Source: a virus
DNA: 39,571 bases
Reading direction: 5' to 3' (one strand)
IMG/VR virus record: IMGVR_UViG_3300031576_000156
Coordinates: 1 to 39,571 of that record
The position numbers and the translations under genes are program-made. Below, piece after piece: positions 18,689 through 39,571 of the stretch. The notes under the pieces are model-generated. The model saw nothing but the letters and a program-made list of their open reading frames with translations, was not told the origin of the DNA and ran no database searches. Numbering within the stretch: position 1 is the first letter of the stretch; each line of letters opens with the position of its first letter.

Positions 18689-19744
18689 ATGCCTAACATG
18701 TTTTTAGGAGGTGGTGGCAGTGGCGGTGGCGGCGGTGAAACTTTCATGTCACAGACATTTACCTCTAGTGGAACTTTTGTAGTTCCGGCTGGAGTAACTA
18801 AATTATCCAATGTTCGTGGACGCCCAGGCGCAGGTGGAGGATCTGGTGGTGGTGGAGGAGCTGGAGCTGCCGGTGGAGCAGGAGCTCGTAACGGTGGATC
18901 TGCTGGAGCGGGCGGCGTCGCCGGTGGAATGGCGACAATGGTTTCGGTCGGTCCCGTTGACGTAACGTCTGGAGAAAGTATCGCCGTTACCATAGGAGCT
19001 GGTGGAGCTGGTGGAGCTGGTGGTACTGGAGGAACCGGTGGGACTGGCGGAAACGGGACCAGCGGAGGTAGCTCTTCAGCTGGTGGAAACGGCGGGGTTA
19101 CGATCTTTGGCACTAGATTTAAGTTTGGAAATAACGTCGCAGGGACTCAGAGAGGTAGTACCGGTGGAAGTGGTGGAGCTGGAGGGACTGCCGGAGGATC
19201 AGGTGGAGCAGCCAGTGGCACTCAGGGGAACCTTCATAGCTCCTACGCAACAGAAATAGCTGGCAGTGGGGCTATGATCGGTGGTGGCGGTGGAACCGGA
19301 GGCAACGGTGCTGCCTCTGGAGCATCGGGAGCGAATGGTGTTGCAGGGGCCACACTTAATATCGCGATAGGAATAATCCCAGTTACCCCGCCGTCCGGCG
19401 GAGCGTTCGGAGCCGGTGGAGCAGGTGATGGTGTTGATAAGGCTGGTGGTGGCGGAGGCGGTGGAGGCGGACCGTCTCATAGCTGGGATAATAGTCTTTC
19501 CGGAGAGGGTATCCAAACGACAGCCGGATCAGGAGGAGCCGGAGGAGCTGGAGCTTCTGTCGCCTCTGGTAGTCCTGGTGCAGCCGGATCAAACGGCGTT
19601 GCCGGAGCTGGCGGTCGAGGTGGTGGCGGTGGGGGTGGTGGTGGAGGCGGAGCCGCCCAGGCCACTACCGGTACCGCTGGAGGAGCTGGAGGGACTGGTG
19701 GTACCGGATCTAGCGGGGTTCTTATCGTAGAATGGTTTCAGTAG
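18689..19744 (+). CDS. Glycine-rich tail-tip/adhesin protein
   Basis: 351 residues, about half glycine, with Gly-Gly-x triplets over most of the length. Residues ~20-42 (SQTFTSSGTFVVPAGVTKL) are a recurring leader domain of glycine-rich phage appendage proteins, and the end (SSGVLIVEWFQ) is their usual beta closing strand. Long GGx tracts form polyglycine-II helical sandwiches in known tail-tip adhesins such as the gp38 of S16-type phages; the loops between tracts (e.g. around residues 135-150 and 265-285) would contact the receptor. Ribosome site AGGAGAGG. Repetitive DNA makes it prone to recombination. Confidence 0.8.
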   Translation: MPNMFLGGGGSGGGGGETFMSQTFTSSGTFVVPAGVTKLSNVRGRPGAGGGSGGGGGAGAAGGAGARNGGSAGAGGVAGGMATMVSVGPVDVTSGESIAVTIGAGGAGGAGGTGGTGGTGGNGTSGGSSSAGGNGGVTIFGTRFKFGNNVAGTQRGSTGGSGGAGGTAGGSGGAASGTQGNLHSSYATEIAGSGAMIGGGGGTGGNGAASGASGANGVAGATLNIAIGIIPVTPPSGGAFGAGGAGDGVDKAGGGGGGGGGPSHSWDNSLSGEGIQTTAGSGGAGGAGASVASGSPGAAGSNGVAGAGGRGGGGGGGGGGGAAQATTGTAGGAGGTGGTGSSGVLIVEWFQ

Positions 19745-30604: not shown

Positions 30605-30606
30605 AC
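29773..30606 (-). CDS. Overprinted second frame within the cytosine methyltransferase gene
   Basis: A 277-codon frame that begins at a GTG sharing a base with the upstream TAG (TAGTG) and two bases before the methyltransferase GTG, and stays open to within 11 bases of its end. Its N-terminal half is Ser/Arg-rich without known motifs. Its C-terminal half has LPTL at 167-170, PPTARDYRHAG at 207-217, RNSPNLPAL near 224-232 and FIEWIMG at 245-251, then ALEPWA. These resemble the ends of proteins often encoded with phage cytosine methyltransferases (typically PTPTARD and FVEWLMGFP). It may be a genuine overlapping gene, or a shadow of conserved methyltransferase codons. Confidence 0.4.
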   Translation of the reverse strand: MWLVLAESTDSISSPVEDGSVKPWHRGSGPLPIVRTTISLKDCCYHACIGERYSKLHSGTTLQLFAEVCSQCVQTSFTEDSHAPTSALLELAAAWAAGSRRYSGRLSGLRKRFARRLCSSKMYGLVLESLSRRSEIRLRDYPTKSETVISPHPMSVYRINERDGSCLPTLLTPCANEGGYNQGGAAGRVGRKRYTLSAMWRKGLIPPPTARDYRHAGYKSDLKRNSPNLPALWKETTGTQCPASFIEWIMGTSFGTSALEPWAIAVRGCNTGRRLGG

Positions 30607-30911
30607 TAGTCTCTTACCTCTCTGGCTTCTTCTTCTAAGTGATCGTACTCACGTACAATACCTATGCGATATTCTCCGGGGGGGATTTCGATAGGTTTGT
30701 GCTCCTCATGCCTAAGCATCACTGGCGTTACAACTCGCAAATGTCTCGTCTTGTTTTTAATGTGAGTTACAAACTCATACTCTCCACCGTAAAGGCGGTG
30801 AGCGTGTCCAGTCGCCTCCCCGTGTTGCACGATGGGTGATTGGATAGGTTTTAAGTCGCCGCTTGGAATTGTCTCTGCGTGAAACAACACATCACCTTGC
30901 TGGATAAGCAT
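30606..30911 (-). CDS. Conserved hypothetical protein (GEATGHAH / HEEH family type)
   Basis: 101 residues. The landmarks QQGDVLF at the start, HGEATGHAHRLYGG in the middle, LRHEEHKPIEIPPGEYRI and the ending EYDHLEEEAREVRD are the signature of a small protein widespread in phages and bacteria, of unknown function. The conserved His residues suggest a metal-binding beta fold. Its stop overlaps the start of the dual-frame methyltransferase locus, so expression is coupled to it. Ribosome site AAGGAA. Confidence 0.75.
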   Translation of the reverse strand: MLIQQGDVLFHAETIPSGDLKPIQSPIVQHGEATGHAHRLYGGEYEFVTHIKNKTRHLRVVTPVMLRHEEHKPIEIPPGEYRIGIVREYDHLEEEAREVRD

Positions 30912-30926
30912 TTTTACTTCCTTTCC

Positions 30927-32204
30927 TTAAGTTAAAATCTCTGGGGATTTGTAAACGTCCACACCGTTGCGCCAGGCTAATGCCTGATCCACCGTCTTGC
31001 AATCTGGATGCACCCCTTCGACGTGCCACGTATCGATCGATGGATTTTTCATTTTAAGATACGGCCTATGTCTACCGTCTTTCAGATCGAGTAACAGTAA
31101 TTCGTAGGTACCTTCTTTATCGATACTTTGTGCGTTTAGATCTCGGCACAATCTTTCGGTGCCAATTTTTCTCACTATCTCCCGGCGTATTTCGGCATTT
31201 TTTTCAGTGAGGATAAGCGCAGCACTAAGCTGATCGCTCGGGGTTTCTACAATCTCTTGTGTGACTCTTACGCCGTTTAGTCCGTACACGGAAAACCCAT
31301 CCCGGTAGCGGACACAAGGGCCACTATCACAATGTATTTTCCCGGCAGCATTGACCTTTATTATTTCCGGTTTCTCACTAAGAACCGCAATATTTCGATA
31401 CGGGTATACCCAAGACGAATGCTTAGTTAGATCTGAAAGCGGGACAGCTTTTTCCGTTTGTTCAACAAGGTTACAAACCTCACGAAAAAAGTCACACCAT
31501 CCTAAATACCCTGCGTCGAATTGTCCTAAGTAACGATAGTAAGGATTAAAATTCTCTTTATACGAATCCCCCACAGAATCCCACACGGAATCCACCACGG
31601 AAGCCCTCACGGAAGCCCCCACAGAATCCCACACGGAAGCCCCCACAGAATCCCACACGGAAGCCCCCACGGAAGCCCTCACGGAATCCCCCACGGAAGC
31701 CCTCACGGAATCCCACACAGAATCCCACACGGAATCCCCCACGGAAGCCCTCACGGAATCCCACACGGAATCCCACACGGAAGCCCACACGGAAGCCCTC
31801 ACGGAATCCCACACGGAATCCCACACGGAAGCCCACACGGAAGCCCTCACGGAAGCCCCCACGGAATCCCACACGGAAGCCCCCACGGAAGCCCTCACGG
31901 AATCCCACACGGAATCCCCGACTTTAGTCACCGTCGCTTTTGTAGAAATGCTCGCTAGGATTTTCCTCATTAGCTTTTCGTTTTTTAGAATTCCTACGAG
32001 CACACATCCGGCAAGCGGTGAAGTAGTCCAGATAATTTGTTTCGGCTGATCAAGCCCTGCAATTTGATAGCAACGTCTTAGCGCAGCTTCCGCTACATCT
32101 CTATCGGCTGGTGTGGTAGACAATCCAATCTTTAACCACTTGTCAGCAAACTCAGGGAAACGCTCCGTTTGCTCTGGCGTTAGCTCCTCAATTTTTTTAC
32201 TCAT
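30927..32204 (-). CDS. DUF6745-like protein with 30-unit tetrapeptide repeat
   Basis: 425 residues from ATG 32204, chosen because it overlaps the stop of the tiny upstream gene (TGATG); an ATG six bases earlier is also possible. Residues ~1-94 are helical. Residues ~95-214 consist of 30 consecutive four-residue units of type Ser-Val-[Trp/Arg/Gly]-[Asp/Ala]. The remaining ~210 residues are a conserved-looking domain (YLGWCDFFREVCNL, YGLNGVRVTQEIVETP, TWHVEGVHPDCKTVDQALAWRNG) that I associate with DUF6745. The repeats would make a regular beta solenoid or rod. Function unknown. Confidence 0.75.
   Translation of the reverse strand: MSKKIEELTPEQTERFPEFADKWLKIGLSTTPADRDVAEAALRRCYQIAGLDQPKQIIWTTSPLAGCVLVGILKNEKLMRKILASISTKATVTKVGDSVWDSVRASVGASVWDSVGASVRASVWASVWDSVWDSVRASVWASVWDSVWDSVRASVGDSVWDSVWDSVRASVGDSVRASVGASVWDSVGASVWDSVGASVRASVVDSVWDSVGDSYKENFNPYYRYLGQFDAGYLGWCDFFREVCNLVEQTEKAVPLSDLTKHSSWVYPYRNIAVLSEKPEIIKVNAAGKIHCDSGPCVRYRDGFSVYGLNGVRVTQEIVETPSDQLSAALILTEKNAEIRREIVRKIGTERLCRDLNAQSIDKEGTYELLLLDLKDGRHRPYLKMKNPSIDTWHVEGVHPDCKTVDQALAWRNGVDVYKSPEILT
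31563..31922. repeat. 12-bp tandem repeat array, 30 units
   Basis: Thirty uninterrupted 12-base units within the DUF6745-like gene. On the coding strand each is Ser-Val plus two variable codons: TGG, AGG, GGG (once GTG) and GAT or GCT. Unit combinations counted: Trp-Asp 11, Arg-Ala 7, Gly-Ala 5, Gly-Asp 4, Trp-Ala 2, Val-Asp 1; Arg-Asp is absent. Ser is TCC except four TCT and one TCG; Val is GTG in all but one. Length changes keep the frame. Confidence 0.97.
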
Positions 32205-32257
32205 CACCATCCCCGAATTTCTTTTAATTGGCCAATGGTTAAATGATTGATGTTCAT
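32204..32257 (-). CDS. 17-residue coupled peptide
   Basis: MNINHLTIGQLKEIRGW. Its ATG overlaps the stop of the zinc-finger gene (ATGA) and its TGA overlaps the next ATG (TGATG), so ribosomes could pass through three genes without leaving. The wording LTIGQLKEI is similar to tiny phage peptides. It may exist only to relay translation. Very short, so support comes from the double overlap. Confidence 0.45.
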   Translation of the reverse strand: MNINHLTIGQLKEIRGW

Positions 32258-38940: not shown

Positions 38941-39099
38941 ATGAGGCTAGACCTGCCTAAGAAGCCTAGACGTAACCTAAACGTATCGGTACGCCTCGAG
39001 CCTGAGGTAGTGGCTATCCTTAAAGAACTGGCTAAGAAGTCGGGAGGTAGTCAAGCGGATGTGATCACGTACTTACTTCGGCAGGCTGTTGAGCGATAA
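38941..39099 (+). CDS. Ribbon-helix-helix (Arc/CopG-type) DNA-binding regulator
   Basis: 52 residues from ATG 38941; an in-frame ATG 33 bases earlier would include promoter DNA and is rejected. The N-terminal RRNLNVSVRLEPEVVAILKEL gives the strand and first helix and SQADVITYLLRQAVER the second helix. It would bind as a dimer to inverted repeats such as the one upstream. No Shine-Dalgarno. Its last 27 bases overlap the antisense end of the dam-like gene. Confidence 0.78.
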   Translation: MRLDLPKKPRRNLNVSVRLEPEVVAILKELAKKSGGSQADVITYLLRQAVER

Positions 39100-39571
39100 G
39101 CCTTTCCAATGAAACAATTTCTCTGGAGGGGCGTTCGTCGTCCCCTTCTGGCTTAATCGCGTTTTTTTATTTATCGCCATTACAACTTTTATATCTTTTG
39201 GAGCTTGGTACTCTGATATAAACACCTGTTCGGTTTGTTTTCTAACCCAGTTCCAAAATTTGTCGTGGCCAAACGAATTTAAGTATGGTGCCGTTCCCAG
39301 GTAGGGTGGGTCACAGTAGATAATTGAGTTAGGAAGGATTTGAATTTCGTCATAGCTTTTGTTAGAAATCTCTAGCTGCTCTAGCTGCTGTAGCCGCTCT
39401 AGCCGCTCTAGCCGCTCTAGCCGCTCTAGCTGCTGTAGCCGCTGTAGCTGCTCTAGCTGCTGTAGCTCGCCTTGTCGCTTCAAGATAATTTGCCTACATA
39501 AAAGTCGCCTATCGCGAATTGATAACTTACCTGAAAATCGATTCATTTTTAGAAAATCAACCGCAAGTGAA
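39073..39571 (-). CDS. dam: D12-class adenine methyltransferase, C-terminal part (cut by contig end)
   Basis: Continuation of the gene at 1-663 across the circular junction. Here the catalytic DPPY is in ILPNSIIYCDPPYLGTAPYL, and FISEYQAPKDIKVV near the end is the family's usual C-terminal strand. The repeat is in its ten-unit form. Read from the window edge it lacks its start. The 3' end overlaps the regulator gene, an antisense arrangement. Confidence 0.9.
   Translation of the reverse strand, partial: SLAVDFLKMNRFSGKLSIRDRRLLCRQIILKRQGELQQLEQLQRLQQLERLERLERLERLQQLEQLEISNKSYDEIQILPNSIIYCDPPYLGTAPYLNSFGHDKFWNWVRKQTEQVFISEYQAPKDIKVVMAINKKTRLSQKGTTNAPPEKLFHWKGLSLNSLPK
39325..39571. repeat. Contig-terminal direct repeat, copy 2
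   Basis: Second copy of bases 1-256, nine bases shorter because it has ten rather than eleven repeat units. Flanks of 51 and 106 bases are identical to copy 1. Confidence 0.93.
39376..39465. repeat. 9-bp tandem repeat array, alternate allele (10 units)
   Basis: Order A B C C C C B D A B with the same unit names as at 52-150. Compared with the eleven-unit version, two A duplications are missing and one C is added, so at least three separate unit changes distinguish the alleles. Confidence 0.95.

Follow-up and report, generated by a model that had tools for sequence, protein, structure and literature searches.

Tandem 12-bp units that encode tetrapeptides are already known from one phage family, that of Tweety gp54 (with Che8 gp57 and PMC gp51). 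In the sections of the article that treat this repeat, gp54 units take the form AA-[GWQ]-[SY] with more variation at the first and second codon positions, and Pham et al. 2007 suggested a wider occurrence of such repeats (PMC2884959). According to the relevant parts of two reviews by Hatfull, Tweety mutants that escape defence by the Phrann or MichelleMyBell prophage carry more or fewer gp54 repeats, and the repeat number appears to tune counter-defence through a mechanism described as obscure (PMC9262239, PMC8549241). Another repeat, set beside the present one by its description in part of the first article, is variable region 2 of bbp36 in Bordetella phage BMP-1, a 24-bp repeat in 9-20 copies within a non-essential gene, which differs in that each 24-bp unit comes with one of three 5-bp spacers (PMC2884959). 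A literature search that covered tetrapeptide repeats, bbp36, Tweety, and counter-defence that is tunable or depends on repeat number yielded, among the titles listed, only these three articles as bearing on the array, and no publication was found on DUF6745. As far as these searches show, the spread of the array, its recurring alphabet, its setting of DUF6745 protein and partner gene, and the fusion of the two were not found described.

The array considered here lies in virus record IMGVR_UViG_3300031576_000156, a metagenome contig of 39,571 nt (the window), and is situated between the N-terminal domain and the DUF6745 domain of one encoded protein (Table 1). The score of this protein against the Pfam profile (E 2.8e-22, 79.5 bits against a curated cut-off of 27) places it in DUF6745, and alignments indicate that its N-terminal domain, for which AlphaFold gives a pLDDT of 86-95 over residues 11-70, is common to DUF6745 relatives in phages and bacteria.

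Table 1. Positions of the array-bearing gene, its parts and its partner gene in the window.
Feature	Position	Strand	Basis
Array-bearing DUF6745 protein gene, 427 aa	30927..32210	-	ORF and Pfam PF20530
DUF6745 domain, residues 251-417	30960..31460	-	Pfam profile match
N-terminal domain, residues 1-97	31920..32210	-	Alignments with relatives; AlphaFold
Array, thirty 12-bp units Val-[Trp/Arg/Gly]-[Asp/Ala]-Ser, 48-bp higher-order period	31563..31922	-	Tandem Repeats Finder, unit counts
Partner gene, 101 aa, phrog_27831, motifs QGD, GExTGHxH, HxEH	30606..30911	-	phrog_27831 E 6.3e-9

Besides the 30 units counted in the Val-X-Y-Ser register of Table 1, whose first Val is encoded by GTC, the array holds 29 complete Ser-Val-X-Y units at 31566-31913. 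The original prediction that X is Trp, Arg or Gly (with one Val) and Y is Asp or Ala is borne out over these 29 units, in which X is W in 13, G in 8, R in 7 and V in 1, and Y is D in 15 and A in 14; the predicted dominance of Trp-Asp and Arg-Ala is likewise found in the pair counts (WD 11, RA 7, GA 5, GD 3, WA 2, VD 1, RD 0). The units do differ almost entirely by amino-acid-changing substitutions, since 31 of the differences from the consensus unit change the residue and 4 are silent, over about 9.7 and 2.3 sites, respectively; all four silent ones are TCT for TCC. When Y was shuffled against X with the 29 units taken as independent, zero RD arose in 0.23% of trials (p = 0.0023) and an equally strong X-Y association in 0.05%. 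However, blocks of four units were copied within this array, so that the units are not independent, and this copying explains much of the WD and RA excess; at a lag of 4 units, 13 of 25 comparisons join units of the same type, where 25% would be expected (p = 0.009 for the best among lags 1-12), and Tandem Repeats Finder scores the array at 465 for period 12 and 563 for period 48. The 360 bp of 12-bp repeat come from a metagenome assembly, with length and unit order given as assembled. A period of 12 bp, or four residues, sets the array apart from pentapeptide repeats, and hmmscan of the window protein at E 0.1 gave no match to PF05017, the tape-measure TMP repeat; the PHROG tape-measure family phrog_1272 weakly matches the array (E 8.1e-5), likely owing to composition.

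Relatives were collected through a first scan with whole-protein baits, including the peptide SVWDSVWD, and through an array-blind scan baited with the C-terminal domain alone. The first scan gave 78 viral loci, the composition of which is therefore biased; their arrays occur in three settings, namely DUF6745 proteins, a second protein group whose short C-terminal domain has its end near PSFDGK.WRLHSG (L037 being a variant with a DUF7666 N-terminus), and short proteins that are nearly all array. The array-blind scan returned 78 viral loci, of which 77 were analysed (L018 was left out), together with 30 bacterial ones, and tetrapeptide arrays are present in 65 of the 77 viral and 11 of the 30 bacterial DUF6745 loci. 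Five of the 12 array-less viral loci (L274, L286, L293, L300, L312) are cut off by the edge of the contig a few residues short of the place of the array, and one (L287) has an unclear frame; in L285 and L295-L299, seemingly one virus type, there is room for an array and none is present. These few viral loci and the 19 of 30 bacterial loci without an array indicate that the core function does not depend on it. The diversity and composition set excluded L257, L292, L306 and L287 (frame anomalies), arrays of fewer than six units and identical duplicates, and composition was counted for the SV, QV and QL frameworks only; in the units so counted, X is W, R or G in 1,451 of 1,641 and Y is D or A in 1,371 of 1,641.

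It is on the array-blind relatives that the suggestion of a restricted code excluding Arg-Asp fails. The pair is absent from the window array, as had been claimed, yet it makes up 212 of 1,320 units in the relatives, where it is second only to GA (215) and is missing from a mere 4 of 45 informative arrays. The missing RD is thus local to the window array, and the copying of a few founder units in blocks suffices to explain it. The Trp-with-Asp association among first-scan relatives (Mantel-Haenszel ratio 2.8, counted after the near-duplicates L019, L020, L026 and L075 had been dropped) was rejected as an artefact of the SVWDSVWD bait; it is gone in the array-blind set (0.87, z -1.0), which shows a weaker excess of Arg with Asp (1.39, z 2.6). 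A 4-unit period was similarly discarded as a feature of the class, being specific to the window array (lag-4 z 1.3 in the array-blind set), and a "core" subset of the first scan was not relied on because it had been selected by its own alphabet. A further pattern scan, which by its design demands [WRG][DA] in five units and whose listed matches include the unrelated repeats WAWA, RSGA and LPWA, served solely as evidence of the existence of other frameworks. Some bacterial DUF6745 arrays vary otherwise, with QAT-[HDYR], QA-[TVA]-[RNEY] and AT-[DRYG]-A units (L225:1-845, L221 and L227), and their variable sets could again be mostly first-base changes of one codon; a Halobaculum plasmid protein (L087:2809-3696) that was matched via the array carries a long coiled-coil-like EKSVEESVGEQV repeat, which is probably unrelated.

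Over 61 array-blind arrays with 1,628 units, the mean diversity at bases 1-12 of the unit is 0.009, 0.009, 0.040, 0, 0, 0.081, 0.652, 0.158, 0.101, 0.100, 0.488 and 0.099, with peaks at base 7 (codon 3, base 1) and base 11 (codon 4, base 2) and near-fixed third, silent bases in framework codons 1 and 2. Silent change therefore lies far below amino-acid-changing change in the related arrays, and such comparisons support a protein-level constraint on the array with maintained variation. A neutral, slippage-prone linker with no selected residues, in which the W/R/G and D/A variation is drift, would predict the reverse of this profile, and Ser-Val also persists across the switch between AGC and TCN codons. 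Trp, Arg and Gly codons are first-base neighbours of TGG, so that the alphabet is easily reached from it, and the array is missing from many bacterial DUF6745 proteins, both of which speak for the linker; accessibility from TGG helps explain the alphabet, but not its mixed upkeep in array after array, and we consider a neutral origin unlikely.

The Ser codon varies between viruses (AGC, TCG, TCT, TCC, TCA) and is nearly constant inside one array, and its alternation between AGC and TCN across viruses argues that Ser-Val is conserved as peptide and not as DNA. More broadly, framework codons vary freely between viruses with the amino acids kept, at loci of 28-71% G+C, which makes it very improbable that the array is a DNA- or RNA-level element (a recombination signal, G-rich structure or nuclease decoy) translated by chance, even if its DNA is G-rich and strongly repeated. 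The confinement of variation to two bases per unit might recall targeted mutagenesis that writes these bases, such as that of a diversity-generating retroelement. However, the variable bases are T/A/G and A/C instead of being adenine-specific, no reverse transcriptase (PF00078) was found in the one record of the window, which may be a fragment, and Arg is encoded by AGG only in 32, by CGG only in 19 and by both in just 1 of 52 arrays; this near-exclusivity argues that units were copied from few founders and not mutated afresh, and a mutagenic origin is hardly credible.

The prediction of a modular, frame-neutral and quickly evolving array is in keeping with near-identical relatives, in which 12-bp units differ in number and order. 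The DNA of L052 and L057 is 98.1% identical over 3,334 bp; their arrays hold 18 and 17 units in different order, and in the aligned array every substitution falls on the two variable bases. L003 and L019 hold 33 and 29 units at 99.9% DNA identity over 3,595 bp, but L019 ends just past the array, which makes this pair weaker. Similarly, Tweety gp54 homologues whose flanks are 99-100% identical measure 1122, 1002, 906, 738 and 702 bp, all length differences being multiples of 12 bp and those from Tweety amounting to 10, 18, 32 and 35 units. Arrays of relatives are therefore not identical, as they would be if the original prediction were wrong. Contig ends fall inside the array in 21 of 65 viral arrays, a warning that long reads are required to establish the order of units in assembled metagenomes; the same 33-unit array in L003 and L015, which come from two differently numbered metagenomes, speaks against a pure assembly artefact. 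Uninterrupted array length ranges from 8 to 70 units, with a median of 22 (contig-truncated arrays included), and this wide range, along with the altered repeat number in Tweety escape mutants that parts of the cited reports describe, would suit a molecular ruler, in which only length counts in spacing the N- and C-domains and the side chains keep the array soluble and extended. A ruler has no need for the same mixed W/R/G x D/A alphabet, which recurs as frameworks change (SV, QV, QL, KV, AA), and we deem it somewhat unlikely.

The window contains further repeats. Its ends, 1-256 and 39325-39571, are the same sequence, which makes a circular or terminally redundant genome probable; the overlap is identical outside a 9-bp array, and inside it one whole unit and three bases differ, as if array length varied among members of this very virus population in a second gene. 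The 9-bp array (39073-39546, minus strand) encodes in-frame Gln/Arg-Leu-Gln/Glu repeats within a gene that resembles DNA methyltransferases and contains a DPPY motif (phrog_56); it is thus the second in-frame array of the virus in which unit differences change amino acids. Glycine-rich repeats lie at 18835-19711 in an ORF (18689-19744, plus strand) between two ORFs matching tail-fibre families.

Like Tweety gp54 as characterised in the repeat-related sections of its description (PMC2884959), the window array consists of 12-bp units with two invariant and then two variable residues per tetrapeptide and with invariant silent positions, and the third residue of gp54 is Gly, Trp or Gln; repeat number differs between close relatives in both. 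In contrast, the same sections give gp54 an Ala-Ala framework and Ser or Tyr as the fourth residue (PMC2884959), its flanking domains are unrelated, with no DUF6745 and no Pfam match, and no phrog_27831 partner occurs in the Tweety stretch that was examined. An iterated HMM of the Tweety N-domain, run over all collected loci, missed the window protein (L001); it recovered at least 16 ORFs including Tweety, most with AA arrays and typically [WRG][DA] units, an alphabet that is partly by construction because these relatives came from the [WRG][DA] pattern scan. Closer to the window protein are gp38 of prophiGD102-1, a Mycobacterium abscessus prophage, and a Nocardia farcinica homologue, both of which resemble it along most of their length, carry a tetrapeptide array at the corresponding position and have the partner gene upstream; they differ in framework (Gln-Leu and Gln-Val) and share about 25% and 37% identity, respectively, with the window protein. 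Gp174 of Microcystis phage Ma-LMM01 is also DUF6745-like and stands beside a partner gene (gp175), but has no array.

The partner gene lies 15 bp downstream of the array gene, and an iterated profile built from its product found homologues in 61 of 77 viral and 21 of 30 bacterial array-blind DUF6745 loci, on the same strand in all 82. All but one of the 16 viral loci without a partner are cut at a contig end, the exception being L285, which has both flanks; bacterial L214, L230 and L234 gave no partner with DNA on both sides. The partner tracks DUF6745 and not the array, bacterial and Microcystis-phage pairs being often array-less, and in at least one virus (L089) N-domain, Lys-Val array, DUF6745 and partner are fused in a 486-aa ORF. 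The conserved motifs GExTGHxH and HxEH suggest a metal site, and the partner has no Pfam, NCBIfam, PADLOC or significant PDB sequence match. A scan of neighbouring genes covered 137 of 148 listed ORFs. An array-less bacterial DUF6745 gene and its partner lie beside radical-SAM and ATP-grasp genes (L232), with a similar upstream arrangement in L237 and L238, and an array-less pair on a Streptomyces plasmid (L085) lies near an STM4015-family gene; these neighbourhoods are an uncharacterised cluster. In an Obscuribacterales MAG (L214:252-2138), a DUF6745 homologue with no partner detected lies directly downstream of a caspase-domain gene.

Nearly constant adjacency on one strand, with fusion in at least one virus, would also be expected if DUF6745 protein and partner formed a phage-carried conflict cassette, for example for toxin-antitoxin function or superinfection exclusion, in which the array sets the specificity of the cassette and does not serve counter-defence; a Verrucomicrobium locus in which bacterial copies neighbour radical-SAM and ATP-grasp genes, and the homologue following a caspase-domain gene, point the same way. 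Neither the window protein nor its partner matches a toxin or defence family, and we regard such a cassette as rather unlikely.

AlphaFold models the N- and C-domains of the window protein with confidence and the array at a pLDDT of about 30, and a relative of 104 aa that is repeat throughout comes out as a single helix (mean pLDDT 63), so that a helical rod is at best a tentative working picture. With this model of more than 400 residues and its low-confidence middle as the query, the best Foldseek E was 0.49 and VIA-align gave no Z of 5 or more. A PDB sequence search with the array returned low-complexity matches only, PADLOC had no match for the window protein, a DNA search of phage records found none, and the second-type array protein L055 had no match in isolate phages.

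As judged from sequence, the array is a selected, recombining and frame-neutral module. We give about an even chance to the fuller reading of it as a selected, recombination-driven tuning module, probably for a tunable contact with the host or for counter-defence. Near-identical relatives show that slippage or unequal recombination adds, removes and rearranges units with the frame intact, and those within one array are copies of few founders; from the pattern of silent and amino-acid-changing differences, selection appears to hold the framework and to keep side chains mixed at X (Trp/Arg/Gly) and Y (Asp/Ala). The array may form an elongated, mostly helical contact surface or spacer. This reading is supported by the QL array of prophiGD102-1 and the QV array of Nocardia, which were found by protein homology and carry the same alphabet, and the conserved partner gene and the L089 fusion are counted in its favour. 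Because arrays of this kind occur in many phage proteins, in one of which repeat number tunes counter-defence, the array probably serves as a contact surface that can be adjusted quickly, and not as an idle repeat. Since the N-domain of Tweety gp54 has no detectable similarity to the window protein and gp54 has no Pfam match, function is argued from the array alone: counter-defence is reported for gp54, and we infer by analogy that a defence protein may be the target. Together with its small partner, the window protein would then most likely make contact with a protein of the host or of a prophage, probably one that takes part in defence, and the length and order of the array might set which target is met, as repeat number seems to do in Tweety gp54. 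A wider proposal appears improbable to us, namely that the array class is general in phages, with a common alphabet (a bulky, cationic or absent side chain, times an acidic or neutral one) on interchangeable frameworks (SV, QV, QL, KV, AA) in several unrelated proteins, and that unit order is a code choosing the host or prophage defence protein that is bound.

Until now, Tweety gp54 has been an isolated curiosity; dozens of unrelated viruses turn out to share the same array design, which sits in at least three protein settings and keeps to one recurring alphabet, and to which the DUF6745 proteins add a conserved partner gene. It becomes testable, henceforth, whether phages use the addition, loss and rearrangement of 12-bp units to adjust protein-protein recognition, a shuffling that would offer them a frame-safe route to fast adaptation.
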